From positions 1-34,388 of the forward strand of contig CALLUY010000046.1 in the NCBI GenBank assembly GCA_938010615.1: DNA of 34,388 nt, read 5' to 3'. This DNA comes from an uncultured Pirellulaceae bacterium. Lineage in GTDB: Bacteria; Planctomycetota; Planctomycetia; Pirellulales; Pirellulaceae. A program made the translations under genes and the position numbers. Shown piece after piece: positions 457-28,928 of the stretch (the stretch's first letter is position 1; each line of letters opens with the position of its first letter). Under the pieces are notes generated by a model. It was given only the letters and a program-made list of their open reading frames with translations, searched no databases and was not told the origin of the DNA.

Positions 457-3400
457 CTACTCGACCGTGATCTCTACGCTCCCTGAGTGGCTGTTGAACT
501 CGGGAGCATACATGCATTGTAGCTCCGCGATTCCGGTTTCGTAGACGCCGCGGTGTTGGACTCGGACGGAGTATTCGAAGACGTAGGTGCCGCGAGGTAA
601 GTAGTCGATGAAGAAGTGGCTGGCCGTGTCCTTTGTCGATTCGTAGTACGCCAAGCCGTCCTGAAACTTATAGCGAGAAAGTACATTGACCGGCTCGGTG
701 CCGCTGCCACGATAGTCCTTGAGGTGCACGTATTCCATTGCCCGATCGACGCGGAGTTCGACTCGCATGACTAATTCGTCGCCGACTTCTACTGGGCCTT
801 TGACTTCGGAGATCACCGGACCCTTCTCCGAGTTCTTCTTGGTGTACAGGCTCTTCTTCAACGTCAGTGGAGTCCCTTCGTAAGGCTCGATCTTGCTGAC
901 GTCTTCTAGGTATTGCCAATGGACGCTGCCCCAAGCGATGCCGTCGTCGGACTTCACCATTTCGATCTGGCCCATCTCCGGCCTGATCTCGCCGCGAACA
1001 AACTTTTGTTCGTAGAATCCAGTTCCAGCTTCGATTTTCTCAGGCTTGATTTGCAACCCGCCGAGCTTCACGCTGACCAGTTTATCGGAGGCCAACAAGT
1101 CGGTGCCGCGGAGGAGCAAGCCGTAACATGCGTCCGCGGTCGCTTTGGTGGTTTTCCAATTCTGAGTTTGTTTCTGTTTCAGCAGCCAGATCTTTAGCTC
1201 CTCAACTTTCGCCTTGTCGCCGGCGACTTCATCGTAAGCTTCGATCATCAAAGCTTGTGTCTCGATCGGAGCCTTGTACCACCACCAAGACCGATCTCCT
1301 TCTCGCCAGAACATTCCCATTTCGTCCTCTTGAAGACTCCGCTCCGTCAGGCTTTTCATGATCGCAGTGGGCGTTGCAGGATCGCCGAGTCGCTTCAATG
1401 CAATCGCGACATGGCCTTGTGATTGACGATTGTTCAGGTCGACCCAATGTTTCTTTGCTTGGCCAACGAAGTAGTCGAACGCAGTCTTGTATTTGTCGTC
1501 AACCGGTTTGTCGTTGAGGAAGAAGCTGCGACCGTAGAGGTAAAGACAAATGGATTGCGAAAGATTGTTCTCTTTCAAATTGCCATGGTTCCTGATGGCT
1601 TCGTACTGTTTGTTGATCCACCAATCCAGCCGATCAAGAGACCGGATCGCCGGAGAGACATCGACGGTGGTTCCCAGATGCCGAAGTCGTCCGAATCCTG
1701 TCGTCACATAAAGCGTGATGTAATCGTTGGCTCGTCCGCCAGGGAACCATGGCCACGCACCGTCGCTCAGTTGCATTTGTTTTAGCCGATCAAGTGATCG
1801 TTTCGTTTCTGCCGTCATGCGGTTTTTGTCGAACAGGACACCGACGTCGCGACGAGCCTGACTTTCCTTTTTGCCGGCCTTCAACCACGGCGATTCGGCG
1901 ATCAAAATGTTTCGCAATTCGTCGTTCTTCTCCAGCGGACCATCGAGAGCATCGGTGCCTCGCCATTGGTCGAAAATTCTTTCGATCTTCGGATCGCTGG
2001 AAACGATGTGATGTCCAAGCGTATTCGCGTACAGCCGGTTAAACGTTTGCTCACTGCATTGATGTTGGTATTCCATCAAGTACGGCAACGACATGACTGC
2101 GTACCAAGACGGGTTGGAAGTCATCTGTACCGTCAGAGTTTGATTTTGAAGCGTGTCGCTTTTTCCAGATAACTTCAGACGTTCGAAATCAAAAGTCTTT
2201 GTTTGGTTGCCACGAATTGGCAGCGGAAGCGATTCGGTTACAAGGATTCGTTTCGAAAGAACTGGCAAGAATCCTTCTTCGCCATCGGAAACTTTCTCAG
2301 TCGCACCAATCGCCTTGTAAGTCAACGCTCCTACGAAATCAGGAACTTTGATTTTCCAGTAAAGGCTCGTCGATTGTCTGGCCGGAATCTCGAACGTCTG
2401 ATCGAGCTGCTGGTTGCCGAACGCCGCATCGACGCTTTTAGCCGTACGAGCATCTGCGAACGTCAGCCGAACAGAACCGGTTTGCGGATCGTCTGACTGG
2501 TTGGAAACTTTGACGGAGAATTCAAGCAAATCTCCCTCGCGAAGGAAACGAGGCGGATTCGGTTGGACCATCAGGTCTTTGCTCGTTGTCATCTCGTCTG
2601 TCAGAAGCGCCGACCGCAATTCGTTATCATGAGCGAAACCCATGAATTTCCATTTCGTAAGAGCTTCTGGAATTTCGAACTCGATTCGAACCGATCCATC
2701 GTCATCGACCTTCAGGTTCGGATAGAAGAACGCGGTCTCTTGCAGGTTCTTGCGAGGAGAAACGGATTTGAGGTCGACTTTCGAACCTGATGATGCGGAG
2801 CTGACGGTTCCGCCCCCAGCATCCGTTTCCACGCCAGATGAATTGGATTGACCTTTGCTCATTGAGCGACCAGCCAACCCCATCCCTGCCGCGTTCGGTG
2901 CCGGTGCCGACGCGGTATCAGCCATTTCCATTGCGGGGACTTCGCCACCACCAAGGAAACCGCGACCTCTGAATTGCATTCGCTGCATCGCATTCCGATT
3001 TGTCCAGTAATCACTCTGCCAATCAAGTCCCGTTAGGTTTGCAAAACTTCGATAGGTGCGACGGGCGTCTCGATAACTGCGGTGGCCAGAGTGAAAAGCT
3101 TGACGTCCGCTTTGTTGAAAGTTGTAGAACCGCATCGTCACCGATGTGTAGTTGCGATAAAACGCATTGAAGGCACCTATCCACTGGTGAGGGTTAAATG
3201 CATCCAGCGACGCGTCATACATGCCCGCAACCATTTCGGAAACTGTTTTTTCGGCGTTGGGGCCAGACACAACGGCCGTCCAAGTTTCTCGGCCGCCGGG
3301 TTGAAGCTTGGAAACGAAGTGCTCCCACTTAACGGTCAGCTTTTTGTTTGACCACGGGACGGTGATCGGTTGATTGACAGGGTAAAGTCGATTTTCATGA

Positions 3401-6400
3401 ACGTAGGTGATTCGGAGTTGTATTCCTCCACGATGTTTTTCTTCGATGGGAAATTTAATGACGTGCTGCGTTGCGTTGGGGTTCGTCCAGTACGATTTCA
3501 AGACCTTGCCGCGATGCTCAAGTTCCACAAACGCGCGACCAGAATCATAGCCAGTGCCCCAGACGGCAACGAATTCTTCGCCCGGTTCGACAGACTTTTG
3601 CTTCGTCTGAAAGAAGTGAGGAATCTTCGTTGCGAACTTGTCGCCCGTGAAATCGTTCACCAATAGTGGCACTTCTGTGCGGACCTTGTTGCCGGCCGGA
3701 TCAGTCGTTTCGAAAACGGCTTTGAAAGCACCCGCTTTGAGTGCGATCGTCGTTTTTGTTTCTCCTGAATCGTCGGTAGAAAGTTCCCTTTCGAGAGCAA
3801 TTGCTCCGGTTGGCCATGCATTGATTTTCGACAGGTCAGGTGTGTCGGTTTTCGGGTTGTAGCCCCAACGATATCGGTTCCCAAGAGCAACACGTTGGAC
3901 TTTTTCAGGTGGAGTCAATTCGAAGATTTTGAGGACGCCGCTGGATTTTTGGCCTTCGCCGTCCACTGTTGTGATGCTCAGTGAGAGTTCAATTTCTTCG
4001 TCCGTCGTCAACCATTGTTCTGCTGACAATTTCGCCTGTAGCGATGTGTAGCCAACGCTTGTCGTCTGGGAGGCTGAACGAGTCTCCCCGGCGGTGTCGG
4101 TAACGTCGGCGAAGACCTGATAAGTGAAAACAGGTTCACTTTCACGATCGATCGATTCATCCGGTTCGGCCGTGAATTCGATCTCAAACTTTCCGTTGGC
4201 GTCGGTTTTCATTTCACCATTGGCGATTTCCTTGGTATCGCCACGCTGCGGCACGTACCAATATCGATAGCTCCACCACGTCGGATATCGAACCGTTCGG
4301 ACGACGCGCCAGACGACTTTGGAACCGTCGACGGCCGCGCCCGTGTAAGCCGTTGCGTTGCCGGTGATCTTGACTTTTTGGCCAAGTTGAAATGCTTCGG
4401 TCGGTTTGTCAATTTCGGTAAAAAACTTTGGGCGTTTGTATTCCTCGACGCGAATCCTTGCGGTACCTGCGATCGAAGAATGGAGTCGCATCATTCCCGT
4501 TACGCGATCTCGCGGCGCCGTGAAGCTGCCAGAAAACGAGCCAAACTCGTTAGTTGTAAACTGCTTCTTTTCGACTTCCTGATTGTTGGCGTCATAAAGC
4601 CAAACGGTGAGCGTTTTGCCCGGACGGGTCGAATACTCGTTGGTGATTTGGTTGGACTGATAACAGATGCCTTTGAACTGAATCGTTTGGCCTGGACGAT
4701 AGATGGAACGGTCTGTGAAGAAGACGGTCCTTTGGTGCTTTGTAGGCGCTGAGTACCTACCGTTGTGGGTGTTTTCGACGACACCGAATGTTTGATCACC
4801 ATGAGTGATATCCAGCTTCATCAGCGCACTCTTGTTCTTAAAGATGACGAACCCGTTGGCGTCTGTCGTCGCAGTTGTTTTCGCAGATGGTCGACTGTTG
4901 CGTCCAGCGTATATCCATTTCGCGCTCTCGACGGTAACGCCCTCTAGCGGCTTTCCGTCGATGGCATTAACAACCTGAACCTCGAACTGACTTTCCCCGA
5001 CCGAACGACGTGCAATCATGGCGAGTTTGCTAATCCAGACTTCGGCCATTGAAATCGATTTGTATTTTTCATCACGAGTCGCTTGGTCAAACGTTCCGTC
5101 ATTGCTGGAAAGCAGGATGTAGCAACCAGATTTGAGGTCGAGTTTGTCTTTATCGACCAATATCGATTCAGTGCGTGGTTTGAAGTCATCTGTCGAGGGC
5201 AACTCAACGGACCACTCTTTGAGAGTCTTGGAATTCAGAATGGCCTTCATGTTTTCATTGTGTGAACGCTGCGGTGTTCGAAATCGTCCCCAGTCTTTCC
5301 AATTCCGGTAATCAAATTCGACTAGCCGAAACCAAACTTTGTTCACATTCTGATATCGGACATCAACTCGAACGTCGTCTCCGTTCCAAACCCGTTCCGT
5401 GACGATATTCAAGAATTTAGTTTCAATTTCGTTGAGCACATTTTGGCATTGTTTCGCCCCAATCGAATTCGGAAATCGAGCGATGCCTTGCTCCGCGAAT
5501 TTTTTGGCTTCGACGAAATCGGATTCGTCAGCCTTGATCGCCATTGCCAACGATGCCAACGCGATCGAGCTCAACGGATGCGTGACGTTCTGGTCACAGA
5601 ATCGTTTCAATGCCGCACGGTATCGAACGTTTGCTTCTTCTCCTTTGGCGATAGAACGTCCAAACCGAAGCCGCATTAACTCAGCGTCGAGGTAAGCAGT
5701 CGGATCTTTGTCCAAGGCATGGGATTGCAACAACTCCTGCAGCAAAGCGACCGCTTTGAGTTGGTAAGAATCGTCGTCAGTCGTTTCAGGATTCCATCTG
5801 AGGAACTCAGCGGTCGCGGCAAAGATTGGCGAATCGGCGCCAACTTGAAACGCGTCCTGTTGACGAATGAACTGTTCATCGAGCGAATAAAATTGCAACG
5901 CTCGGAAGGCAAGGAAGTCATAGAGCGTGGGGCGATGTTCGTCGGAAACGTTCCCTTTGGTCAACAGCTTGTCGTAGGTGGCGATTGGAATCTTTTGCAA
6001 ATCCTCTTTCGACGCAAGAGCCTCTGTGAACAGTTTGTCAATTTCGCCCAGCAGTCTGGCCAGATCCCACATTGCAAAATCGTCGCCCGGTTCAGATGCC
6101 GTTTGAGACCGCTGTTGGAATCGCCATCGATTCTGTTGATAGTACATGAAAAAGTACTCAGCCAACATCGTCTTCAGCACTGGCTTCATTTGCTCAGGAG
6201 CATCCGGTATCGCGACGCGTAGTTGCTTGATGACGTACGGATAAACCGGTTGATTGACCTGACCTTCGATCAAAAAACGAGAGCACAAAGCCAGTGTCGC
6301 TTCAGGCCACGCTTCGTCAGCGACGGCACTTTTCTGAATCTCTTTCAAGCCAGCGATCGCCGATTTCGGCAAGCGATTTTGCTGATCGCTCTGAACTTTA

Positions 6401-6543
6401 TTCCACAGCTGTAGCCGATCTTCGTCTTCGAGCCAAGAATCACCAAGGGATCCATTTTCGCTCGCCAGCAGAAAGTTACCTGCGAAGAGGCAACCGGTCA
6501 GTAGAGAAAGAAACAGAACAAGGAAACTGATCAAACGGATCAT
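457..6543 (-). CDS. large lipoprotein alpha-2-macroglobulin family protein with thioester motif
   Basis: The product (2028 residues from the ATG at 6543) is a bacterial alpha-2-macroglobulin, a periplasmic protease trap thought to capture attacking proteases through a reactive thioester. A hydrophobic N-terminus ends in the lipobox LLTGC (Cys18), so lipid anchoring is likely. About 400 N-terminal residues look helical and repeat-like. They are followed by macroglobulin/MG2-type beta domains (roughly 580-1000), a Gly/Ala/Ser-rich stretch near 1190-1250 that could serve as bait or linker, the conserved A2M segment, and the thioester motif C-S-E-Q with Cys near residue 1496, then the thioester helical domain and a C-terminal beta domain. 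The frame extends to a TTG at 6564, but the ATG gives a proper signal peptide and has AAGG upstream. It is longer than typical bacterial members (about 1500-1700 residues). The usual partner gene pbpC is not in the window. Confidence 0.93.
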   Translation of the reverse strand: MIRLISFLVLFLSLLTGCLFAGNFLLASENGSLGDSWLEDEDRLQLWNKVQSDQQNRLPKSAIAGLKEIQKSAVADEAWPEATLALCSRFLIEGQVNQPVYPYVIKQLRVAIPDAPEQMKPVLKTMLAEYFFMYYQQNRWRFQQRSQTASEPGDDFAMWDLARLLGEIDKLFTEALASKEDLQKIPIATYDKLLTKGNVSDEHRPTLYDFLAFRALQFYSLDEQFIRQQDAFQVGADSPIFAATAEFLRWNPETTDDDSYQLKAVALLQELLQSHALDKDPTAYLDAELMRLRFGRSIAKGEEANVRYRAALKRFCDQNVTHPLSSIALASLAMAIKADESDFVEAKKFAEQGIARFPNSIGAKQCQNVLNEIETKFLNIVTERVWNGDDVRVDVRYQNVNKVWFRLVEFDYRNWKDWGRFRTPQRSHNENMKAILNSKTLKEWSVELPSTDDFKPRTESILVDKDKLDLKSGCYILLSSNDGTFDQATRDEKYKSISMAEVWISKLAMIARRSVGESQFEVQVVNAIDGKPLEGVTVESAKWIYAGRNSRPSAKTTATTDANGFVIFKNKSALMKLDITHGDQTFGVVENTHNGRYSAPTKHQRTVFFTDRSIYRPGQTIQFKGICYQSNQITNEYSTRPGKTLTVWLYDANNQEVEKKQFTTNEFGSFSGSFTAPRDRVTGMMRLHSSIAGTARIRVEEYKRPKFFTEIDKPTEAFQLGQKVKITGNATAYTGAAVDGSKVVWRVVRTVRYPTWWSYRYWYVPQRGDTKEIANGEMKTDANGKFEIEFTAEPDESIDRESEPVFTYQVFADVTDTAGETRSASQTTSVGYTSLQAKLSAEQWLTTDEEIELSLSITTVDGEGQKSSGVLKIFELTPPEKVQRVALGNRYRWGYNPKTDTPDLSKINAWPTGAIALERELSTDDSGETKTTIALKAGAFKAVFETTDPAGNKVRTEVPLLVNDFTGDKFATKIPHFFQTKQKSVEPGEEFVAVWGTGYDSGRAFVELEHRGKVLKSYWTNPNATQHVIKFPIEEKHRGGIQLRITYVHENRLYPVNQPITVPWSNKKLTVKWEHFVSKLQPGGRETWTAVVSGPNAEKTVSEMVAGMYDASLDAFNPHQWIGAFNAFYRNYTSVTMRFYNFQQSGRQAFHSGHRSYRDARRTYRSFANLTGLDWQSDYWTNRNAMQRMQFRGRGFLGGGEVPAMEMADTASAPAPNAAGMGLAGRSMSKGQSNSSGVETDAGGGTVSSASSGSKVDLKSVSPRKNLQETAFFYPNLKVDDDGSVRIEFEIPEALTKWKFMGFAHDNELRSALLTDEMTTSKDLMVQPNPPRFLREGDLLEFSVKVSNQSDDPQTGSVRLTFADARTAKSVDAAFGNQQLDQTFEIPARQSTSLYWKIKVPDFVGALTYKAIGATEKVSDGEEGFLPVLSKRILVTESLPLPIRGNQTKTFDFERLKLSGKSDTLQNQTLTVQMTSNPSWYAVMSLPYLMEYQHQCSEQTFNRLYANTLGHHIVSSDPKIERIFDQWRGTDALDGPLEKNDELRNILIAESPWLKAGKKESQARRDVGVLFDKNRMTAETKRSLDRLKQMQLSDGAWPWFPGGRANDYITLYVTTGFGRLRHLGTTVDVSPAIRSLDRLDWWINKQYEAIRNHGNLKENNLSQSICLYLYGRSFFLNDKPVDDKYKTAFDYFVGQAKKHWVDLNNRQSQGHVAIALKRLGDPATPTAIMKSLTERSLQEDEMGMFWREGDRSWWWYKAPIETQALMIEAYDEVAGDKAKVEELKIWLLKQKQTQNWKTTKATADACYGLLLRGTDLLASDKLVSVKLGGLQIKPEKIEAGTGFYEQKFVRGEIRPEMGQIEMVKSDDGIAWGSVHWQYLEDVSKIEPYEGTPLTLKKSLYTKKNSEKGPVISEVKGPVEVGDELVMRVELRVDRAMEYVHLKDYRGSGTEPVNVLSRYKFQDGLAYYESTKDTASHFFIDYLPRGTYVFEYSVRVQHRGVYETGIAELQCMYAPEFNSHSGSVEITVE

Positions 6544-6650
6544 GTTGGCGACCTTAAGCGACAAGTGTTGTGTCCAACCCTATCGGAATGGATATCGCTT
6601 TGTGACGCAACATGAGTCGCTCGAGTTCCCGGATATTCTCGCACTCCAAT

Positions 6651-13278: not shown

Positions 13279-13447
13279 AGATTGCTCTGTTGGTGACGTT
13301 CGCAAGGTGTCCGGTATTAGTTTCAACAATGCCAGTCATGAGAATTGATCGGACTTTGAATCAACTCGTTTGGCAGTTAAAATGTGGGATCGCGTGAAAG
13401 CGCTGATTCCCACCTTTCTCTCCACTCTTCCTTCCCGGAATTTGCTC

Positions 13448-16400
13448 ATGAGTCGAAAGTCTTCCAAACGTGAAGCGAGCAAGAAATTGCTGAGCTATCA
13501 AACGCTTGAACCTCGAAAGTTGCTGGCGGGCGACGTCGTGATCTCGGAGTTCGTTGCATCGAATCTTGGGTCTTTTCTTGATACCTACGAAGAGTCGCCG
13601 GACTGGATCGAGCTTTACAATCGCGGCGATACGGCTGTTGATCTTCAGGGCTATCACCTGACTGATGATCCGGCTGACCCAATTGGCTGGACGTTCAATG
13701 CTTCGTCTGTGATTGGTCCCGGTGAGTATCAAGTTGTTTTTGCTTCTTCGCGAAACGAAATCGATCCCGCTGGATATTTTCACACTGACTTTAAGCTTAG
13801 TGCGGGCGGCGAATACATCGCACTCTACGATGCGGACTTAAATTTGCGATCTGAGTTTGGCGCCAACGGCACGGACTATCCAGCCCAAATCACAGATGTC
13901 TCTTTCGGTGTTGGACAGGGAGCGTTGGTCAACGGAGACAGCGTTGCTCAATATTTGATTCCGTCAGACAGCTCCCTTGAATCGACTTGGTTTAACAACA
14001 ACTTCAACGCCAGTGCAAACGGATTTATCGATGGCCGCGCGGCGATTGGTTATGAAAATAGCCCTGGTAGCAATACCAGCTACAGCGATGAAATTGAAAC
14101 CGTGGTCCCATCGGGAACAACCAGCGTCTACTTGCGAAATGAGTTCAATCTTGATGATGCGAGTGCGGTTACGGATCTCGTGTTCAATGCCAAGTTCGAT
14201 GACGGCTTTGGGGTTTGGCTCAACGGTCAGTTTCTGTTTTCTGAAAACGCAGGAAATGGTTTCGCTTGGAATACCACTGCCAGTGGAATTCACAATGACG
14301 CTCAGGCGTTGCAGTATCAATCCTATGCGCTCGACGGAAGTGTCGGTTCGGTTGGGGATTTCCTGAATCTGTTAGTTGACGGGAAAAATACGCTGGCGAT
14401 TCATGCACTCAATGAGTCATCTACAAGTAGTGACTTTTTAATGTCGCCGCAGTTACTCACGAATTCTCCAGTTGGGGCGGCAACGTATCTGGCGACTCCA
14501 ACACCTGAGCAACCGAATTCGGGACCGGCGGTTATTGGGCCTCGAATCGAGAACGTGAGTGACTTTACATCAATTGCTCTCGGTCAACAGACGACCATTA
14601 CGGCGGATATATCCCAATTTGATTTGCCAGTTAATGCCAGTCAGGTTCGTCTGCACCATCGCGTGATGTTCGGCAGCACGCACACCATTGCAATGAACGA
14701 TAACGGCACAGGCGGTGATGCGGTCGCTGGCGACGGCACATTTTCTGCAACCTTTAACACATCTGGCGTGGCAGCCGGCCAAATGGTTCGCTGGTACGTG
14801 ACGGCGGAAGATACCGACGGAAATCAGTCACGTGCTCCACGCTTCTTCGATGCACTTAATTCGGCCGAGTACTTTGGCGCGGTTGTGGTTGATGCTTCGA
14901 TCGATACCGATTTGCCTGTTATTCAATGGTTCATCCAAAATCCTTCTTCGGCCAATACTGATTTTGGATCGCGGGCTTCGATTTTTTACGAAGGCACTTT
15001 CTACGACAACGTCCAAGTCGATATTCATGGCCAGTCGACACGTGGAAGCGAGTTTCCGAAGAAGTCGTATGACTTTGATGCCAACTCCGGCGAGAAATTC
15101 GATATTCCGTTCATCGGCAAATCGAGCGATTTTAATTTGCTGACCAACTACGCAGACCAATCAAAGCTTCGACATCCGTTGGCGTATGAGCTGCTGACCG
15201 AATCCGGAGTTCCGACGTTGCATGGCGCTCCGACGATGGTTTATCGCAATGGAGCGTTTTACGGACTGTACGACGTTGTCGAAGAAGGAGACGAAGAATA
15301 TCTCGATCGTGTGGGGCTCGATACCAACGGTGCACTCTATAAAGTCAACAACAATTTGAGTCACGCGTACACGAACGTCACCAAGAAAACTCGCAACTAT
15401 GAAAATCACGACGATTTTCAAAACGTGATCAATGGAAACGCGCTCAGTGGATCAACGGCGACGACTTGGGATTTTGACAACCTCGACATCGCGGGATTGA
15501 TTAACTACGTCGCAGGCGAAGCCGTTGTTTCTGGTCCGGATTTTGGACACAAGAACATGTACTGGTATCGAGACACCGAAGGCACCGGTTTGTGGACGTC
15601 ATTGCCGTGGGATCAAGACTTGACGTTTGGTCATCAATGGACGGCGTCCGTTTCACCGCCTTATTTTGACAACACGCTCTACACGAATCTGAACCTCGAC
15701 GTGGGGCTCAACAATTTGTTCCAACGCGTGCACAACACGCCGGTGCTGCAAGAAATGTTTTTCCGCCGCGTGAAAACACTTTCGGATCAGTTTTATGGTG
15801 AGCCCGGAACTCCTGTTGCGTCAAGCTACCTCTATCAACGCATGAATGAGATCGAAGCTTTGATCGAGGACGAAGTCGCACTGGACATTGCTGAGTGGGG
15901 CATTCAGGCCAACTTCGCGGCGGCCTATCCGTTCAATCCTGCTCAAGCCGTTGATCAACTGCGAGACGTTTTCATTAACTCGCGCCGGGTGAATGTGAAC
16001 AACCGCAATGGCGTGCCAAACGCCCAAACGGGAACGCCAACGATTCTGTTTGACAATTCCGATTTTGATTCCAGTCCAGCGTCTGGTTTGCAAGCTGAGG
16101 AATACGTTCGGCTCAATAATCCGAACTCCGTTGCTGTTGATGTTTCAGGTTGGACGATCAGTGGTGGAATTTCCCACACGCTCAAAGCTGGCACCGTCAT
16201 CCCGGCCGGTGGAAGTTTGTACCTGGTTGCCGATGTCGTTGCATTTCAAAATCGCAACGTTGGAGTTGGATCGGGGCAGCAGCTTTTCATTCAGGGTAAT
16301 TACAACGGGAATATTTCAAATCTTGGTGAAACGATTGAGCTTCATTCGGATGCCGGAGTCTTCGTCGATGATTTGACGACGCCGAATTCGGGTCTCACCG

Positions 16401-18466
16401 CGAACCAAGACTTTTTTCGGATCTCGGAAGTCAATTACAATCCGTCGACTTCAGTGGCTAACGCGGAATACATCGAGTTTCTCAACACGGGGACGACGAC
16501 GCTTGATCTTGCGGGCGTTACGGTCACAGAAGGACCAAGTGTTCCATTCGTGTTCCCTGCGGGAACGACTCTGGCGGCGGGCGAACGGATTTTGATCGTT
16601 CAGGATCCAGCTGCGTTCGCGGCGGCCTATCCCGGTGTTCCGGCTTCACAGGTCGTTGGAAGTTATACGGGAAAGCTAAGCAACGCTGGCGAGAATATTC
16701 GAGTTGAAGAGCCAGGCGGTGAAAAGATTCTCGAAGTGAATTACGGTGATTCCAATCCTTGGCATTTTGGTACTGACGGTGATGGTCAGACGTTGCAGCT
16801 GGTGGACGAGTTTAACACTTCGTTGTTGGAAGTTGGGAAGAACTACGCTTGGAAGCCTAGTTTCGCATTCAACGGAACGCCAGGTCAGCCGCCGTTGAGC
16901 GTCGGAACCGTTGTCATCAATGAGATTCTTGCCCATACAGACGACCCATTATTGGACAGCGTCGAACTGTTCAATCCGACGGGCCAGTCGGTGTTGATCG
17001 GTGGGCTCTATCTTAGTGATTCCGCCAACAATCTCCTGAAGTATCAGATTCCTGCAGGAACGACTTTGGGCGCTGGCCAGTATATTGTGTTTGATGAAAC
17101 TCACTTCAATCGGAATCCGACTAATCCGGGGCCAAATGACTTCTCATTTAGTTCGTCCAATGGAGATCAAGTTTGGTTGACGGCTGCTGCCGCTGGATTG
17201 CCAAGCGTCGTATTTGCTCAAGCTGACTTCGGTGCAACTTTCAATGGAGAGTCACTCGCACGAGTACCGAATGGAACGGGTCGACTGTTGCCGAGTGCAA
17301 TGACAACGCTCGGAGCAGAGAATTCGACTCCTCGAGTTGGTCCGCTGATCATCAGTGAAGTCAACTATCATCCGGAGGATCCATCTTCCGCTGCGTTGGC
17401 GATTGAGCCAGCGATCACGGCTGGCGATCTCGAGTTTATCGAAATCAAGAATCCAACGGCGCAGTCGATTGCCCTTTCAAATTGGCGTCTTCGTGGAGAA
17501 CTGGATTTCGATTTTGAATCTGGCATGATAACTTCGGGCGATACACTCGTCGTCGTGACATTTGATCCGGTGCTCCCGGAGAATGCGAGTTTGCTTTCCG
17601 CCTTCCGGACTCACTATGGCATCGACAATACGGTGAATCTCGTTGGTGTCGAGACCGGTGACAACCTTGCAAACAGCTTCGGACGTGTCAGCTTGCAACA
17701 GGCAGATGATCCGCCAGCAAACGATCCCGCGACGATTCCTTGGGTATTGGCGGACGAAGTTGTTTACGATGATCTTTCTCCGTGGCCAATCGCAGCCGAT
17801 GGCTCAGGACCTTCGATTAACCGGCTAGAGTCAGGAACCGAGGGAACCCCAGCTTCCAACTGGACGGGCGATGTACCTTCGCCGGGCGAGTATTTTGGAT
17901 CTTCGACTGCTCCAACGCTTGCTGGCTTGACGATCAACGGTGGCGAGAGCCAACGATCTTCAGTAGACAGACTCGTGTTGACGTTCAGCGGTTCGGTGGA
18001 TATCGATCCAGACGCTTTCACTTTGGTTCAACGTAGCGATGGTGATGGAACGCCAACGGGAACCGTACTTTCCTCCAGCTTCAGTTGCGCCATGAATGGT
18101 GACACGATTGTGACGCTGACGTTTGATAGTTTGACTCGCAACGCCGCAGGTTTTCTTGTCGACGGCAACTATGAATTGACAGTCGACGGTTCAAAGGTAC
18201 GACGAACGGGCACAGGTTTGACGCTTGGTGGCGAATTCGTCTACGGTGATAGTGCCGACGAACCGTTCTATTCGCTTTACGGCGACAACAACGGAGATCG
18301 CATTGTGAATATTTTCGATCTGTTGGCTCTGCGACAAACTTATTCCGCGTCGACAGGTGACTCGAACTTCAATCCAGCTTTGGACTTCGGCGCCGACGGA
18401 ACGATCAATGTGTTCGACTTGCTGCAGTTCAGAAACAACTTCGGAGAATCACTGCCGTTTGTTTAG
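13448..18466 (+). CDS. giant secreted protein with lamin-tail domains, CotH kinase-like domain and dockerin
   Basis: This is a 1672-residue exported protein. The N-terminus carries the planctomycete export motif LEPRKLLAGD at about residues 19-28. I see five lamin-tail (LTD) beta-sandwich domains, near 30-110, 880-960, 987-1080, 1154-1230 and 1299-1390. A CotH kinase-like domain (about 490-840) includes the VDIHGQSTRG, FNLLTNYADQSKLRHPLAYEL and LPWDQDLTFGHQW motifs. A chitobiase-C-like segment sits near 380-480. The C-terminus has a dockerin I-type pair of Ca-binding repeats (GDNNGDRIVNIFDLL; GADGTINVFDLL). CotH domains phosphorylate secreted proteins in spore formers; activity here is inferred. 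The frame is open to a TTG at 13370, with another ATG at 13382. The ATG at 13448 places the export motif normally and has GGAA upstream. Confidence 0.9.
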   Translation: MSRKSSKREASKKLLSYQTLEPRKLLAGDVVISEFVASNLGSFLDTYEESPDWIELYNRGDTAVDLQGYHLTDDPADPIGWTFNASSVIGPGEYQVVFASSRNEIDPAGYFHTDFKLSAGGEYIALYDADLNLRSEFGANGTDYPAQITDVSFGVGQGALVNGDSVAQYLIPSDSSLESTWFNNNFNASANGFIDGRAAIGYENSPGSNTSYSDEIETVVPSGTTSVYLRNEFNLDDASAVTDLVFNAKFDDGFGVWLNGQFLFSENAGNGFAWNTTASGIHNDAQALQYQSYALDGSVGSVGDFLNLLVDGKNTLAIHALNESSTSSDFLMSPQLLTNSPVGAATYLATPTPEQPNSGPAVIGPRIENVSDFTSIALGQQTTITADISQFDLPVNASQVRLHHRVMFGSTHTIAMNDNGTGGDAVAGDGTFSATFNTSGVAAGQMVRWYVTAEDTDGNQSRAPRFFDALNSAEYFGAVVVDASIDTDLPVIQWFIQNPSSANTDFGSRASIFYEGTFYDNVQVDIHGQSTRGSEFPKKSYDFDANSGEKFDIPFIGKSSDFNLLTNYADQSKLRHPLAYELLTESGVPTLHGAPTMVYRNGAFYGLYDVVEEGDEEYLDRVGLDTNGALYKVNNNLSHAYTNVTKKTRNYENHDDFQNVINGNALSGSTATTWDFDNLDIAGLINYVAGEAVVSGPDFGHKNMYWYRDTEGTGLWTSLPWDQDLTFGHQWTASVSPPYFDNTLYTNLNLDVGLNNLFQRVHNTPVLQEMFFRRVKTLSDQFYGEPGTPVASSYLYQRMNEIEALIEDEVALDIAEWGIQANFAAAYPFNPAQAVDQLRDVFINSRRVNVNNRNGVPNAQTGTPTILFDNSDFDSSPASGLQAEEYVRLNNPNSVAVDVSGWTISGGISHTLKAGTVIPAGGSLYLVADVVAFQNRNVGVGSGQQLFIQGNYNGNISNLGETIELHSDAGVFVDDLTTPNSGLTANQDFFRISEVNYNPSTSVANAEYIEFLNTGTTTLDLAGVTVTEGPSVPFVFPAGTTLAAGERILIVQDPAAFAAAYPGVPASQVVGSYTGKLSNAGENIRVEEPGGEKILEVNYGDSNPWHFGTDGDGQTLQLVDEFNTSLLEVGKNYAWKPSFAFNGTPGQPPLSVGTVVINEILAHTDDPLLDSVELFNPTGQSVLIGGLYLSDSANNLLKYQIPAGTTLGAGQYIVFDETHFNRNPTNPGPNDFSFSSSNGDQVWLTAAAAGLPSVVFAQADFGATFNGESLARVPNGTGRLLPSAMTTLGAENSTPRVGPLIISEVNYHPEDPSSAALAIEPAITAGDLEFIEIKNPTAQSIALSNWRLRGELDFDFESGMITSGDTLVVVTFDPVLPENASLLSAFRTHYGIDNTVNLVGVETGDNLANSFGRVSLQQADDPPANDPATIPWVLADEVVYDDLSPWPIAADGSGPSINRLESGTEGTPASNWTGDVPSPGEYFGSSTAPTLAGLTINGGESQRSSVDRLVLTFSGSVDIDPDAFTLVQRSDGDGTPTGTVLSSSFSCAMNGDTIVTLTFDSLTRNAAGFLVDGNYELTVDGSKVRRTGTGLTLGGEFVYGDSADEPFYSLYGDNNGDRIVNIFDLLALRQTYSASTGDSNFNPALDFGADGTINVFDLLQFRNNFGESLPFV

Positions 18467-22504: not shown

Positions 22505-22618
22505 CTGCCCAAAAGTGGGCTCCGCGAGGGGGAGCCGTGAACCTGGTCAGGCCTTAACCGGAGCAGCCATAAGCGGGGTACTCTTGTGCGGAGTCCTCTT
22601 TTGGGCAGATTCAACTTT
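22505..22618 (+). ncRNA. ffs: signal recognition particle RNA (small bacterial type, 4.5S-like)
   Basis: The ends pair over a long helix: CTGCCCAAAAG (22505-22515) with CTTTTGGGCAG (22608-22618), continuing through GGGCTCCGC against GCGGAGTCC. The middle holds the conserved Ffh-binding domain, with G-G-T-C-A-G-G on the 5' side and A-G-C-A-G-C-C on the 3' side. About 114 nt is the normal size of the small bacterial SRP RNA. The tip between the two halves reads CC-TTAACC-GG, not the usual GGAA tetraloop. TTCAACTTTCTTTT after the helix serves as the terminator tract. The next protein gene starts 13 bp downstream. The RNA works with Ffh and FtsY in co-translational targeting. Confidence 0.88.
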
Positions 22619-22631
22619 CTTTTAAGCAACC

Positions 22632-24782
22632 ATGCATCGATATAGCATCGTAGTCTTTCTTGGCGCTTTCCTGCTTTTTCAGGTCCAGCCTCTGATCGCA
22701 AAAGTCATCCTGCCGTGGTTTGGTGGAACAGCATCGGTTTGGAACACCTGCATGATGTTCTTTCAAATCGCGCTGCTTTTGGGCTATCTGTATTCGCATG
22801 GTCTGCGGATGTTGCTCAAGCCACGTACGTCATGGATCGTGCACAGTATTGTTCTGCTGTTAGCGCTGCTGACGCTGCCAGTGCTGCCGACGGAATCGCT
22901 TAAGCCGGAAAGCTACGATTCGTTTTCGTTCGAGATCGTCAAAGTGCTGGCGTTGTCAGTCGGAGTACCCTTTTTTGTTTTGGCAACGACCGGGCCGCTT
23001 ATTCAGGCTTGGCAGAGCGTTTCTCACGGTGGCGATGCTGGCTCTGGAAAGTCCAATTCTCCCTATCGACTGTACGCGCTTTCAAATGTCGGATCGCTAT
23101 TGGCATTGATCAGCTATCCGTTTTTGTTTGAACCAAACTTGCGGTTGCAAAGCCAGTCGTGGCTGTGGTCGGGCATGTTTGTACTCTTTGTCTTGATGTG
23201 TATCTGTAGTGGAATGCAAGTTCGGCAGCGTGATTCGTGGCACGAGGTGGCTGACGAATCAAAACTGGAAAGTACGTCGAAGATTGGCGTGTTGACGATG
23301 CTGATGTGGCTCGTGTTGGCGATGTTGCCATCGATCATGTTGCTGGCGACGACCAACTTGATGTGCCAAGAGATTGCGTCAGTGCCCTTTTTGTGGATCT
23401 TGCCGCTGACGCTTTACTTGATTTCGTTCATCATCTGTTTTGAGAAACCTCGCTGGTATCATCGTGGGATTTTCGTGCCGCTGTTGCTGCTTGGCGTCAC
23501 GGCGGGCGTGGCCGTTGCGTTGCTCAATGTGCATGCGTCAGCAATGTTGCAAGTCGCATTGCTCTCACTGAGCCTGTTCGCATGTGGGATGACTTGTCAC
23601 GGCGAACTGGAACGGCTCAAGCCTCACGTAAGCAAGCTGACGCTATTCTATCTTTTCGTGTCGCTTGGAGGTTCGCTTGGCGGGATTTTCGTTGTGTTGA
23701 TCGCTCCGCGAATCTTTTCCGGGTTTCCGGAGTATCAGTTGGCGTTGATGGGGTCGCTTGTAGTTGGTGTCGCCATTCCCAGTTTTCAAAAATCGATGCC
23801 GGGCATTAGGAAGCTGGGCCTTGGATTCGTTGCCCTGATTATAGGCGGTTTGGTTTTGGCGAACTTGATCGCCACGCTGACGCGTACTCAAGTCGATGGA
23901 GTATTACTTGACGGGCGCAACGAATACGGAATCTTCTCGGTCGAAGAAAAAGGAAATCGTCTGGTCTTCATTAGTGGCAATATCGATCACGGAAGCCAAA
24001 TCATGCTTCCAGAACCCAGCTTGGAGCCGCATAGTTATTACGCTGACGGAAGTGGGTTTTCAGTTTGCATCAAAACGCAGCGAGATATTGCATCCAACGA
24101 ACAGCCACCTCGAAACGGCTTGAAGGTCGGTGTGTTGGGATTGGGCATCGGATCGATGCTTTCATGGGCGACGCCCGAAGACGAGTTTGTGTTCTATGAG
24201 ATCAATCCAAAAGTCGAAGAAATTGCTCGAGAATGGTTTACGTTTCTCGATTCGCACGAACAGTCGGAAGTCGTCATTGGTGACGGACGGATCATGCTGG
24301 AAATGGAAACGAAGAAGGGAATCGACCGTCAGTTTGACTTGTTGGCCATCGACGCGTTTTCAAGCGACTCGATCCCGGTTCACTTACTGACTGACGAGTG
24401 CTTCGACGTTTATCAGAAACACTTAAAGGAAGACGGGATTCTTCTATTCCATATTTCGAACCGCTTTATCAACTTAAAACCCGTCATTTTCGCGACTACC
24501 AAGAAGCGGGGTTTGACGGCATCTCACGTCGTTCACAAAAGCAGTGAAGATGAATCGATCTCAGGTAGTGACTGGATTTTGGTGACAAATGAAAAAGTTG
24601 CCAATCATACTTGTATTAAATCGGCGGCGACCGACTACCAGTTACCCGCAAATGCTCCTCAGTGGACTGACGATTTCGCCAGCCTTGCTCCCGTGATGAA
24701 CTGGTCGATCGCGATTTCATGGGAAAAGATGTTCGAGGGCCAGCGAATGAAAAAGAAAACTCCAACGGTGGAACAGAAGTGA
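22632..24782 (+). CDS. membrane-fused spermidine synthase-like protein
   Basis: This 716-residue protein has about 480 N-terminal residues of multiple transmembrane segments, starting with the family hallmark FLLFQVQPLIAKVILPWFGG. A C-terminal spermidine synthase-like methyltransferase-fold domain follows (about 490-700), with the nucleotide-binding GLGIGS near residue 500, an acidic residue in FYEINP, and DAFSSDSIPVHLLT near 575. Such fused MFS/spermidine synthase proteins are common in planctomycetes. Aminopropyl transfer has not been shown for most of them and the substrate is uncertain. It starts 13 bp after the SRP RNA and its TGA overlaps the GTG of fdhD, so the two proteins are probably translationally coupled. 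Confidence 0.85.
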   Translation: MHRYSIVVFLGAFLLFQVQPLIAKVILPWFGGTASVWNTCMMFFQIALLLGYLYSHGLRMLLKPRTSWIVHSIVLLLALLTLPVLPTESLKPESYDSFSFEIVKVLALSVGVPFFVLATTGPLIQAWQSVSHGGDAGSGKSNSPYRLYALSNVGSLLALISYPFLFEPNLRLQSQSWLWSGMFVLFVLMCICSGMQVRQRDSWHEVADESKLESTSKIGVLTMLMWLVLAMLPSIMLLATTNLMCQEIASVPFLWILPLTLYLISFIICFEKPRWYHRGIFVPLLLLGVTAGVAVALLNVHASAMLQVALLSLSLFACGMTCHGELERLKPHVSKLTLFYLFVSLGGSLGGIFVVLIAPRIFSGFPEYQLALMGSLVVGVAIPSFQKSMPGIRKLGLGFVALIIGGLVLANLIATLTRTQVDGVLLDGRNEYGIFSVEEKGNRLVFISGNIDHGSQIMLPEPSLEPHSYYADGSGFSVCIKTQRDIASNEQPPRNGLKVGVLGLGIGSMLSWATPEDEFVFYEINPKVEEIAREWFTFLDSHEQSEVVIGDGRIMLEMETKKGIDRQFDLLAIDAFSSDSIPVHLLTDECFDVYQKHLKEDGILLFHISNRFINLKPVIFATTKKRGLTASHVVHKSSEDESISGSDWILVTNEKVANHTCIKSAATDYQLPANAPQWTDDFASLAPVMNWSIAISWEKMFEGQRMKKKTPTVEQK

Positions 24783-25651
24783 ACGACTCAAGCGATAGTC
24801 TCGAGGAACGTCGCCGCATTCGTGAGATCGTCCGGTTTTCCGACGGCCAATTCGTCACCGAGAACGATTCACTCGCGACAGAAGAGCCGTTCGAAATCCG
24901 CGTCGTGTTCGGAAAGGCACCAAAGCGGAAAGATCGTTCGCTGTCGATCACCATGCGGACTCCGGGACACGATCAAGAATTGGCGGCTGGATTCTTGCTG
25001 GGCGAAGGCATCGTCAATTCATCGGACGATATCGATTTGTTTGAAGTGACGGGCTCCAAAGCCGACGGCTCAAAGGAAACGAATCAACTGTGCGTGCATC
25101 TGGCGGAGCACGTCGCGTTTGACTTTGGCTCTCTGCAGCGGAACTTCTACACGACTTCCAGTTGTGGGATCTGTGGCAGGGCTTCATTGGAAGCTGTTCG
25201 TTCGCAGTTGAAGGAATCAGTGTCTTCAGAAGAAATGTTCGTTTCTCCCGCCGTTATCTGTTCGCTTCCAGATTCATTGCGACAGTATCAATCCACTTTC
25301 GAGGCGACCGGTGGACTTCATGCAGCCGGACTCTTTGATCGGTCAGGGGCTGTAATTGATTCTTATGAAGATGTCGGCAGACACAATGCCCTCGACAAAT
25401 TGATCGGCAGTCAATTACTTTCGAAGTCGGTGCCGCTTTCGAATCGTATTGTCGTCGTCAGCGGCCGAGCCAGTTTTGAGCTGGTTCAAAAAGTTATCTC
25501 TGCCGGAGTGCCCATGTTGGTCGCAGTTGGCGCTCCGTCTTCCTTGGCGGCGGATCTTGCCCATGAGTTTGGTGTCACGCTGGTTGGATTTGCTTCAGCG
25601 AAGCGATTTAACGTCTACAGTCATGCACAGCGAATTGGGCCTAAGCGATAG
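24779..25651 (+). CDS. fdhD: formate dehydrogenase accessory sulfurtransferase FdhD
   Basis: FdhD passes sulfur from a cysteine desulfurase to the molybdenum cofactor of formate dehydrogenase, an activity needed for that enzyme. The 290-residue product has the sulfur-carrying C-x-x-C (SSCGICG, Cys129 and Cys132), the DVGRHNALDKLIG block and the SGRASFELVQK block typical of the family. The frame is open to an ATG at 24719 inside the upstream gene. I prefer GTG at 24779, which forms a GTGA overlap with the upstream stop and has GGTGG before it. No formate dehydrogenase subunit is in the window. Many of those enzymes are selenoproteins, which is notable given the nearby Sec-type thioredoxin. Confidence 0.92.
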   Translation: MNDSSDSLEERRRIREIVRFSDGQFVTENDSLATEEPFEIRVVFGKAPKRKDRSLSITMRTPGHDQELAAGFLLGEGIVNSSDDIDLFEVTGSKADGSKETNQLCVHLAEHVAFDFGSLQRNFYTTSSCGICGRASLEAVRSQLKESVSSEEMFVSPAVICSLPDSLRQYQSTFEATGGLHAAGLFDRSGAVIDSYEDVGRHNALDKLIGSQLLSKSVPLSNRIVVVSGRASFELVQKVISAGVPMLVAVGAPSSLAADLAHEFGVTLVGFASAKRFNVYSHAQRIGPKR

Positions 25652-25840: not shown

Positions 25841-27043
25841 ATGAATTTTAAGACACCAAGATATTTCCTTGTGGCAATGCTTCTCTTTGCTGGAACGGTT
25901 GCACAGGATTTGGTTGCCCAAACGTACTATGTTGCGACCAACGGGAACAATGCTCGCACCAGAGCGCAAGCGCAAAATCGCAACACTCCCTATCGCTCGA
26001 TTCAAACCGCGCTCAATCGAGCGCCATCTGGTTCGACCATTGTTGTCCTTGATGGAACGTATTGGGGACATTTTAACTTTGTGCGTTCGAACGTGACACT
26101 GAAATCAGAACGCAGAGAAGGTGCGTTTATTGTTGGATCCATTTTCGCAAACGATTTGTCGTTTATTCGGATTGATGGATTTGAGATTTCTAACCGACGC
26201 CCCGATGCTCCTCGCAGTAAAGGCATCGGTGTGAATCGTTGCCACAATATCGTCGTTCGCGATTGCCGCGTTCACGATTGCCGTGGCGGTGGAATTGCAA
26301 TTGACCAGAGCGACCAAATTCTCTGTGAATGGAACGTCGTTTACCGGAATGCGTTCTGGGATCCCGACCAACACAGCGGGATTAGCATATACCAGCCGCA
26401 ACGTCGCACCACCGACAGATCCGGTTACGATATAATCGTTCGGAATAACACAAGTTTCTCCAATGAGAACAAAGTCAACAACGTGCTCTTCGGTCGACCA
26501 ACTGACGGAAATGGAATCGTCGTGGACGATACGCAAAACTTGACAGCACCTACAGGCGACAATCAGCTTTACTCCGGATCGATCCTCGTTGAGAACAATT
26601 TGTGTTTTAATAATGGTGGTCAAGGAGTTCACTGCTACCAATCAGAGAACGTTACGATTCGTAACAACACGCTCTATCGCAACATGCGAAGTTTCGACTT
26701 CGGTGGCGAAGTGTCAGTTGTTCGCGGAAACAACGTTTTGGTTTACAACAACATTCTCTGTGCCAACAACAATCGTGACGCTGCCCTCAAATTTGAAGGC
26801 GGATTCGTTTGGTTTAACTTCAACCTGATTCACAACGGATTGACGCCGGGCGTGAATAACGGGCGAAACACGATTTTTTCTCCGCCTGCATTTGATCCAA
26901 ATGGCTTTTTTGATTTGCGATCCAACAGTCCAGCGGTTGATGCTGGCCTGACTCAGTCAGGAAGGTTCGGTTTGGATGTTGACGGGAAATTCCGATCCTC
27001 TGGTGACGGCATAGACATCGGTGCCAAAGAATTCGCGTTCTAA
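25841..27043 (+). CDS. secreted right-handed parallel beta-helix protein
   Basis: This 400-residue protein has a signal peptide (MNFKTPRYFL onward, cleavage probably after LVAQ near residue 27). A DUF1565/pectate-lyase-like N-terminal cap (TYYVATNGNN, then YRSIQTALNRAPSGSTIVV) leads into repeated beta-helix rungs rich in N-N and I/V-V-R-N motifs (about 110-330). The fold is that of secreted polysaccharide lyases and hydrolases, but no catalytic residues can be assigned. The frame is open to 25802; the ATG at 25841 gives a proper signal peptide. A strong terminator follows 33 bp after the stop. Confidence 0.85.
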   Translation: MNFKTPRYFLVAMLLFAGTVAQDLVAQTYYVATNGNNARTRAQAQNRNTPYRSIQTALNRAPSGSTIVVLDGTYWGHFNFVRSNVTLKSERREGAFIVGSIFANDLSFIRIDGFEISNRRPDAPRSKGIGVNRCHNIVVRDCRVHDCRGGGIAIDQSDQILCEWNVVYRNAFWDPDQHSGISIYQPQRRTTDRSGYDIIVRNNTSFSNENKVNNVLFGRPTDGNGIVVDDTQNLTAPTGDNQLYSGSILVENNLCFNNGGQGVHCYQSENVTIRNNTLYRNMRSFDFGGEVSVVRGNNVLVYNNILCANNNRDAALKFEGGFVWFNFNLIHNGLTPGVNNGRNTIFSPPAFDPNGFFDLRSNSPAVDAGLTQSGRFGLDVDGKFRSSGDGIDIGAKEFAF

Positions 27044-27075
27044 ACAACTTGATTTAGAAACGACTAAACAAATAA

Positions 27076-27110
27076 GGGTGGCATAGACAAACGTCTACGC
27101 CACCTTTTTT
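27076..27110 (+). terminator. rho-independent terminator after the beta-helix gene
   Basis: GGTGGC and GCCACC with an inner TAGAC/GTCTA stem form a hairpin, followed by six T residues (27105-27110). It lies in the 85-bp gap between the converging beta-helix gene and thioredoxin gene. The reverse strand has only CTTATTTG after the stem, so it serves mainly the + strand. Confidence 0.88.
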
Positions 27111-27128
27111 ATGCACTATGTAGATTGA

Positions 27129-27455
27129 CTACGCCGATGTGCTGTGCGTGTCGAGCAAAGTCTGAAGCTCGTCTTTTTCTCTGTAGCCTTGAAGTCGCTC
27201 TACGACTTCGCCGCCCTTGAAAACAAGGATCGTGGGTACTGCAGCGATACCGTACTTTACGGCAAGCTCCATGTTTTGCGTAACGTCGAGCTTTCCAACT
27301 TTGGATTTGCCTTCGTTCTCAGTTGCCAATTCGTCGATGACTGGACCCAGTCGTTTGCAAGGTCCTCAGCTTTCTGAGTAAAAATCAACCATTACGATTG
27401 AATCTGAGCTGAGTACATCAGCATCGAAACCGTCAGTAGTAAATTCTGCCGCCAT
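27129..27455 (-). CDS. thioredoxin with in-frame UGA at the active site; probable selenoprotein (Sec30-Gly-Pro-Cys33)
   Basis: Read from the ATG at 27455, which has an ideal AGGAG five bases upstream, the frame gives 29 residues ending VDFYSES, then UGA (27366-27368), then GPCKRLGPVIDELA, and runs on without interruption to a TAG: 108 codons, the normal thioredoxin length. The UGA stands exactly where the first Cys of C-G-P-C belongs. Downstream the fold is intact, with cis-Pro in AAVPTILVFKGG. Read as selenocysteine, the active site is U-G-P-C, a selenothiol/thiol redox pair for disulfide reduction in the cytoplasm. A SECIS-like hairpin follows the UGA. Trp before the first active-site residue is replaced by Ser. 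Alternatives are a nonsense mutation (pseudogene) or a base error. A TTG at 27329 would give only a 66-residue fragment lacking the active site and has no reason to be the start. Confidence 0.85.
27339..27368 (-). promoter_or_regulatory. candidate bacterial SECIS element directly after the thioredoxin UGA
   Basis: Counting the U of UGA as nucleotide 1 on the - strand, GACUG (17-21) pairs with CAGUC (26-30), leaving the loop G22 G23 U24 C25 (27344-27347). In the E. coli fdhF SECIS, as I recall it, the loop is also GGUC at 22-25, and G23 and U24 contact SelB. The bulged U17 of fdhF is absent (G17 is paired). A competing helix, GGACC (4-8) with GGUCC (22-26), is also possible. The lower stem is weak. 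Confidence 0.6.
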
Positions 27456-27476
27456 TTTGTCTCCTGGTATCTAAGT

Positions 27477-27506
27477 GTATGACTTGCGACAAGTCGTTGT
27501 GTTCAA
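27477..27506 (-). promoter_or_regulatory. candidate thioredoxin promoter with palindromic spacer
   Basis: On the - strand, TTGAAC (27506-27501) and TCATAC (27482-27477) are 18 bp apart. The perfect inverted repeat GACTTG-TCG-CAAGTC (27495-27481) fills most of the spacer and overlaps the -10, so a regulator bound there would block transcription. The predicted start would give a leader of about 15 nt containing AGGAG. Confidence 0.35.
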
Positions 27507-27533
27507 GGTACTGAGACGCGTGAAAGCCAAGAA

Positions 27534-28928
27534 TCATACTGACTGTTTCGCGTTTTCAGCTGCCACGATTTTACGATTTTCCCGCCCGATGAACAGAGAC
27601 AATCCAATCCAAGCGATTGCGATTGGAATCATGATCCACGAAAGCGTGGTCATTGCCATGCCCAAAGTCTCTCGAGCGGACTTGTAGACACCTCCAATGG
27701 CCGAATCTCCTCCTCTTCTGACGACTGTGTCGATGAAGCTTTTCGCTTTATATCGGTCTTCACGTTTGACGGCCGTGAAAAGAACTTCGCGAGCTGGGTT
27801 GCTGATGCCGTATTCCGCTGACCGACCAATCACCGAAACGACGGCTAAAACGGCAATGGAAGGAGACAGTGCCAGCGAGGTAATCCCAATCACATAGGCG
27901 ATCGGCAACATCGCCAGCGTCCAGCCCAATCCGCCCTTTCGCATCAGCCAACCGACGACAACGCATTGGAACAGCAGCGTGACGATTGATACGGCAAAGT
28001 TGATGTTGGCGAAGTATTCAGTGCTGGCTTCCTTGGATGCCGCTTTCTGAAGTTTGGCTCTTGCCGCTTCAAGTTGCTTCTCCGTCAACAATTCTCGATT
28101 TTCGATTTGGGATTCATCAAATTCAACATCTGCGAAAGCCGCGTTGACTATTTCGGCTTGTTGAAAGTAAACCGTTGTTCCGCAGGTCGCTAAGAATATT
28201 CCAAACAGGCAGATGGCAAATAGGTACGTCGATTTAAAGACCGCAGTGAAGCCGGCAAAAGGGTTTCCGCCCGTCGCTTTGCCGCTGTCTTTTTTCTTGT
28301 GAGTTGAATCTGATAGTTTGCTGAACGATCGTTCCATCGAAAAGTACACCACCAACGCCACTAGCAGCAGTCCAGCTGGAATCAGTAGCAGGTTGGCAAC
28401 TCCAAACTGGCCGACGAGCCGCCCCGCGACTTGAGATCCGACAAGCCCACCGATCGTTCCACCGCCGGACATAACGCCGAAGATTCGGCGGCCCTGATCC
28501 GTCGAAAGCATGTCGCCGGCGATGCTCCAAAAGAATGAAACGATGAACAATCCGTAGACGCTAATCCAAACGAAAAAAGCGCGTGCCACCCAAATCTGCG
28601 AGGAATCTGGCAGTCCGTTCATCGCCAGCCAGAACGCAAACAAGCACGTCATGAAGATCAAGTAGATGCACGGAACGAGTACCTTCCGATGGAACTTGCC
28701 GACCAAAATCGAGTACAGCGGAATCGCGACCAGCATTACGACGAACGTTGCCCAGAAAAGCCAGGACAGGTTTTCAATTCCGTAAGTCGAACCGATTTGC
28801 TCTCGAATGGGACGCAGCACGTAGTAGCTGAACAGGACTAGGAAGAACCAAACTGCTCCGTGCCAGAGTATCGATCGTTCGTACGCCGTCAGGTCTCCAA
28901 CGAGGCGTTTTTCAATGGCAAGGAGCAT
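27534..28928 (-). CDS. ADP/ATP-carrier-like (NTP/NDP exchange type) or MFS transporter
   Basis: This 464-residue integral membrane protein has about 12 hydrophobic segments. The N-terminal SYYVLRPIREQIG motif and the general layout resemble the bacterial ADP/ATP translocase-like (Tlc/Npt) branch related to MFS transporters. True energy-parasite translocases have extra substrate-binding residues that I cannot confirm, and free-living bacteria carry many homologues of unknown substrate. A soluble helical insert rich in Glu, Lys and Gln (about 255-300) lies between the two halves. The ATG at 28928 lacks a clear Shine-Dalgarno. The thioredoxin gene follows about 80 bp later in the same direction but has its own likely promoter. 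Confidence 0.8.
   Translation of the reverse strand: MLLAIEKRLVGDLTAYERSILWHGAVWFFLVLFSYYVLRPIREQIGSTYGIENLSWLFWATFVVMLVAIPLYSILVGKFHRKVLVPCIYLIFMTCLFAFWLAMNGLPDSSQIWVARAFFVWISVYGLFIVSFFWSIAGDMLSTDQGRRIFGVMSGGGTIGGLVGSQVAGRLVGQFGVANLLLIPAGLLLVALVVYFSMERSFSKLSDSTHKKKDSGKATGGNPFAGFTAVFKSTYLFAICLFGIFLATCGTTVYFQQAEIVNAAFADVEFDESQIENRELLTEKQLEAARAKLQKAASKEASTEYFANINFAVSIVTLLFQCVVVGWLMRKGGLGWTLAMLPIAYVIGITSLALSPSIAVLAVVSVIGRSAEYGISNPAREVLFTAVKREDRYKAKSFIDTVVRRGGDSAIGGVYKSARETLGMAMTTLSWIMIPIAIAWIGLSLFIGRENRKIVAAENAKQSV

Follow-up and report, generated by a model that had tools for sequence, protein, structure and literature searches.

Thioredoxins are small proteins that maintain other proteins in the reduced state. 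Bacterial thioredoxins in which selenocysteine (Sec, U) takes the place of the first active-site cysteine belong to an established family. The Sec thioredoxin (Trx, PF00085, UxxC) is presented as experimentally verified in a 2026 review (PMC13188914), which cites Kim 2015, and the same review describes the Sec forms of Trx as adapted to efficient work at high substrate concentration. A count made in 2006 comprised seven such proteins, with examples from delta-proteobacteria, Carboxydothermus and Treponema (PMC1794560, in extract). Among planctomycetes, P1 and P2 were reported to have Sec-insertion genes, and P1 a selenoprotein FdhA (PMC4807772, in extract); as far as that extract goes, the main text has the word "thioredoxin" once, in a cited title, and the supplementary candidates could include one. 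The main texts of PMC5029168 and PMC12013277 gave no match for planctomycetes/thioredoxin. In the open-access literature, nothing was found that links Mariniblastus with selenocysteine, and no title or abstract opening reports a Sec thioredoxin there.

We describe herein a thioredoxin gene of an uncultured marine planctomycete, probably a member of Mariniblastus, in which an in-frame UGA is very probably read as selenocysteine. The product would be a U-G-P-C enzyme, expected from its sequence to reduce disulfides. The gene resembles the known UxxC thioredoxins in that a thioredoxin standing alone would have Sec in place of its first active-site Cys. It differs in coming from a planctomycete lineage, where UPPC forms occupy a fusA/ptsI locus and are apparently the sole thioredoxin in some genomes. 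Like P1 and P2, the organism is a planctomycete with Sec-insertion genes and, like P1, it has a FdhA that is a predicted selenoprotein. Because Sec thioredoxins are already known, the gene adds a member to a known kind.

The window, i.e., the whole stretch of 34,388 nucleotides that was analysed, is contig C46 of a 4.7-Mb draft assembly (G000) that is 84% complete. Elsewhere it carries a bacterial small SRP RNA (22511-22605, plus strand; 46.6 bits, cut-off 40), a bacterial alpha-2-macroglobulin of 2035 residues (457-6564, minus strand), and a protein of 1698 residues that combines lamin-tail, CotH kinase and dockerin domains (13370-18466, plus strand). The thioredoxin frame (27129-27455, minus strand) consists of 108 codons and a TAG stop. 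It opens with an ATG at 27455-27453, preceded by a Shine-Dalgarno-like AGGAG (27465-27461), and closes at 27131-27129. A single in-frame TGA, codon 30 (27368-27366; ...FYSES-U-GPCKRLGP...), occupies the first active-site position and likely encodes Sec30, while a TGC at 27359-27357 supplies the second, Cys33. These features bear out what an earlier note, made from the letters alone, had said of the start, the frame and its one UGA. That note had also seen family-like sequence on both sides of the UGA, and with C written for U, PF00085 matched residues 4-102 (E 5.8e-27; 94.1 bits, cut-off 23.5) and TIGR01068 residues 7-103 (101.1 bits, cut-off 96.8), so that profile homology spans both flanks and the thioredoxin domain covers the whole protein. 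When TIGR01068 was run on the genome DNA, the score was 93.7 bits, just under the cut-off, and the NCBIfam TrxA cut-off (NF006898) was missed, with 98 versus 138 bits. An AlphaFold2 model reached a mean pLDDT of 92.2 and a pTM of 0.85, and the sequence relatives of known structure were nearly all thioredoxins (best 60 of 283). No sigma-70 promoter was found in a scan of 27000-27700. Beyond the stop, a terminator-like 12-pair hairpin is followed by a T-rich stretch (27077-27104, minus strand; one found, shuffles mean 0.7).

The UGA is shared by relatives. An ortholog search of 99 genomes, the window's own included, found TGA at the same codon in ten other genomes of the genus, with 61-69% identity. 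The resulting group of 11 genes has UGPC in G000 and G025, and UPPC in the remaining nine. A second UPPC clade (G001, G002, G006 and G015) and a third UGA type (G013 and G025) add six genes, bringing the total to 17 UGA thioredoxin genes in 16 of the 28 genus genomes. The third type is distant; its two genes, L056 (G013:C6) and L057 (G025), have the active sites W-UPPC and W-UGPC and a 7-pair hairpin with a CGGG loop 22 nt after the UGA. Outside the genus, G136 and G137, which belong to another genus of the family, share the active-site TGA in the form T-UGPC (L212, L213; 241 family genomes searched). Seven outside-genus rows with TGA among the matches listed were checked; these two have it at the active site, and the other five (G203, G278, G143, G198 and G276) were rejected as UGA thioredoxins, their TGA being an ordinary terminal stop. 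Cys relatives of the thioredoxin have CPPC or CGPC, and TGC or TGT stands at the active-site column, as the earlier note's reading of the UGA called for. A comparison with public contigs found 195 relatives and kept 80 loci; eight of these have the TGA, all as UPPC and apparently from the same genomes as the genus set, and the other 72 have no TGA in the matched frame. When 392 genomes of the phylum were scanned for a UGA-PC-hairpin pattern, the one match was to the genome of the window; the draw contained no other member of the genus.

On a tree of 46 chosen rows, from which the third type and G012 were left out, five changes between Sec and Cys are needed, at least three of them by well-supported branches, and two Cys proteins (P0037 and P0044) are nested in the UPPC group. 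The relatives give no sign of the decay that the earlier note had named as a sign against its reading. The sequence downstream of the TGA is under purifying selection: pN and pS after the TGA are 0.175 versus 0.73 between G000 and G008 and 0.147 versus 0.65 between G000 and G025, and in all 11 pairs computed nonsynonymous change clearly lags behind synonymous change.

Among the alternatives, the one that survives best, improbable as it is, holds that the UGA is mainly a selenium-controlled stop, i.e., a selenium-gated switch, and that a CGPC thioredoxin does the work. A Sec gene should indeed end early when selenium is short, and G000 retains a second thioredoxin, a CGPC protein at C28 (99.3 bits), for which reason sole dependence on the UGA gene is not claimed for the window's genome. 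On the other hand, a UGA gene is the only thioredoxin-family match above 50 bits in nine of the 28 genus genomes (G001, G003, G007, G008, G016, G017, G018, G019 and G022; 88-93% complete), although each single absence is unsure because these are incomplete drafts. Thioredoxin matches below 50 bits in the nine lie mostly in longer frames. Being the only stand-alone thioredoxin found in these relatives, a UGA form would there do housekeeping work. Moreover, C30, P32, C33, D24, K55 and P74 (C for U), columns with familiar roles in thioredoxins, are invariant in 40 aligned proteins, which also argues against a mere switch.

The surroundings of the gene vary within the genus. In all four genomes mapped (G003, G016, G019 and G024), the UPPC gene lies between fusA with rpsG on one side and ptsI with a FabZ-like gene on the other; G024 carries a CGPC gene as well. 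The same locus holds CGPC in G005, G011 and G027. The names at this locus were taken from G016 by NCBIfam, with the FabZ-like gene below its cut-off. In G136 and G137, the neighbors of the thioredoxin include ptsI and the FabZ-like gene, and fusA is not matched within 14 kb, while in G000 and G025 the order is peptide transporter, MFS, thioredoxin, beta-helix protein and fdhD. A selA match over the cut-off was missing in three of the 16 UGA-thioredoxin genomes (G002, G003 and G018; 88-92% complete). It was present in G001 and in six of the eight orthologue-group genomes with UPPC as sole thioredoxin, the exceptions being G003 and G018. The proposition that a Sec thioredoxin occurs only where selA is present was set aside for want of contrast, as 22 of the 28 genus genomes have a selA match above the cut-off, including nine without a UGA thioredoxin. 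No thioredoxin reductase match above 50 bits was found in G017. A flavoprotein adjoining the second-clade gene was considered as a private thioredoxin reductase and rejected, since TIGR01292 covers only about 216-300 of the profile; the translated flavoproteins of G001 and G002 presumably resemble a glutamate synthase small-subunit-like protein.

Selenocysteine decoding can be expected of this organism, as the earlier note had predicted. Profile searches of the assembly returned SelA (552 bits, cut-off 267.9), SelB (349.8 bits, cut-off 242.25) and SelD (262.6 bits, cut-off 125), and tRNA-Sec scored 65.9 bits (cut-off 47) and was also called by ARAGORN as tRNA-SeC with anticodon tca; the set of a Sec-decoding organism (selA, selB, selD and selC) is thus present, each over its cut-off. 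The SelD match (L010, G000:C68:22772-23689), whose active-site stretch reads Cys, sits in a 741-residue open frame with no internal stop and seems to be fused to an N-terminal domain, which by eye we take to be flavoprotein-like. The nearby fdhD (FdhD-NarQ, formate dehydrogenase maturation; 24719-25651, plus strand), a gene also found near the G025 orthologue, had been noted earlier as a hint of a Sec-dependent formate dehydrogenase. The hint was a good one: the formate dehydrogenase alpha subunit of G000 (L174, G000:C154:8353-10365; 811.4 bits) contains a single TGA in frame, placed at the Sec position in the motif AATUHAP, with a GGUCU-loop hairpin 18 nt after it. These findings weigh on the proposal, still less probable than the switch, that a code change or a suppressor tRNA makes UGA stand for another amino acid. 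Whichever amino acid UGA stood for, the thioredoxin frame would be open, but the gene upstream (27534-28928) terminates in TGA, so that TGA is still a working stop next door; in both UGA genes seen in G000 the codon coincides exactly with a known Sec site, and tRNA-Sec is present together with SelA, SelB and SelD.

A hairpin, GACUG-GGUC-CAGUC (27339-27352, minus strand), follows the thioredoxin UGA and is likely a SECIS element by its conservation and spacing. The bSECIS model, as given in an extract of PMC13188914, asks for an apical loop of 3-9 nt, an upper stem of 4-16 bp, a G in the first two loop positions, 16-37 nt from UGA to loop, and a minimum free energy of -7.5 kcal/mol or lower. 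A GGUC loop on a 5-pair stem fits the shape, and a distance of 18 nt fits the spacing, but the window's copy reaches only -6.2 alone and -6.3 when forced in 48 nt, and the free minimum of the 48 nt (-11.6) is a different, competing fold. Thus, a candidate for the SECIS element that the earlier note proposed to seek within 27300-27370 was found by shape and spacing, though it fails the energy rule, and the hairpin is likely bSECIS-like in shape, spacing and conservation. In 48 nt, the energies are -7.3 in G008, -7.7 in G024, -12.3 in G025 and -7.9 in G136 and G137; no excess stability over shuffles was found (z -0.91, -0.49 and 0.20). In the E. coli fdhF SECIS (L091), a GGUC loop likewise begins 18 nt downstream of the UGA; that hairpin has the greater stability (-14.9 in 48 nt), with an apical stem of four pairs versus five here.

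The codons of the hairpin hardly vary. Its 14 bases (GACTGGGTCCAGTC) are invariant in all 11 orthologue-group genes. Of the seven amino-acid-invariant codons in the hairpin stretch (codons 34-41), five are also nucleotide-invariant, versus 2/45 elsewhere (Fisher p 1.6e-4), a contrast that lies within the gene, so that kinship acts on both sides. With only five divergent genes, the figures are 5/7 versus 5/45 (p 0.0017). In G136 and G137, the hairpin reads AACTG-GGTC-CAGTT, with one pair altered on both sides, a covariation of one pair that 74 of 500 shuffles also reached. A GGUC loop with at least five pairs is present in 11/11 UGA orthologue genes (12 rows, one gene twice), while none of 94 Cys rows, in which some genes are present twice under two handles, has a GGUC loop with even two or more pairs 16-25 nt after the column. 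Generic G-loop hairpins of at least five pairs are so frequent (the best hairpin in 45 of the 94 Cys rows) that only the GGUC form discriminates; generic criteria were therefore ruled out as proof of a SECIS, there being no shuffle signal either. The second-clade UPPC genes L051-L054 (G006, G002, G001 and G015) have hairpins of 3-4 pairs and no GGUC loop. That an ordinary Cys thioredoxin has acquired a nonsense codon or was wrongly sequenced, so that the gene is dead or misread, would take just a single TGA in one draft assembly that is 84% complete; this is the least credible of the readings in view of the same-codon TGA in ten other genus genomes and in two of another genus, the selection on the sequence after it and the conserved adjacent hairpin codons.

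The selenoprotein reading that the earlier note put forward is thus supported by the Sec machinery, the TGA of FdhA, the Cys homologues and the lack of decay. In such a gene, SelB with Sec-tRNA-Sec would bind the GGUC hairpin and insert Sec at codon 30. If the enzyme follows the usual chemistry of thioredoxins, the selenolate of Sec30 would attack the substrate disulfide, Cys33 would resolve the mixed selenenylsulfide, and NADPH-thioredoxin reductase (TIGR01292 match at G000:C88; joined pieces 346.5, cut-off 343.45) would reduce the Se-S bond. If selenium is absent, a 29-residue stub would result.

A different arrangement may exist in G013, where a CPPC thioredoxin (L030 1501-1884, G013:C163) ends in ...SGGGC-TGA-GGC-TAG, possibly encoding Gly-Cys-Sec-Gly. 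A hairpin of six pairs, AGCGUU-GGUC-AACGCU, lies 20 nt after the tail TGA, with no excess stability over shuffles (z -0.34 and -0.47). The tail occurs in eight of 16 relatives taken from 120 listed, seven with GGC as their last residues and one with GGG; G013 alone matched the 127-residue tailed query as far as its C-terminus among the matches listed (241 family genomes). No literature on such a C-terminal Sec tail of a thioredoxin was found, judged by title. The C-terminus of animal thioredoxin reductase is Gly-Cys-Sec-Gly, as that of the G013 thioredoxin would be; the animal enzyme is a flavoprotein, whereas the G013 protein is a thioredoxin and is not the window's gene, and the likeness is a lead only. 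A joint reading, which we put forward tentatively and consider doubtful, is that the housekeeping thioredoxin turned Sec in the eight UPPC-only genomes, of which the three mapped members have the gene at the fusA/ptsI locus, and that Sec moved to a C-terminal tail in the sister lineage G013. If so, the UPPC-only group would have no Cys back-up, its ribonucleotide, sulfate and peroxide reduction would depend on selenium, and the G013 thioredoxin would carry a second redox center of its own.

Standard gene calling would end the window's thioredoxin at 29 residues and so hide a core redox protein. The genus has UGPC, UPPC, CPPC and CGPC forms, and one locus holds UPPC in some species and CGPC in others, so it could be used to test why a housekeeping enzyme exchanges Sec and Cys. 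In any species that truly has no thioredoxin but the Sec form, growth would be limited by the supply of selenium.
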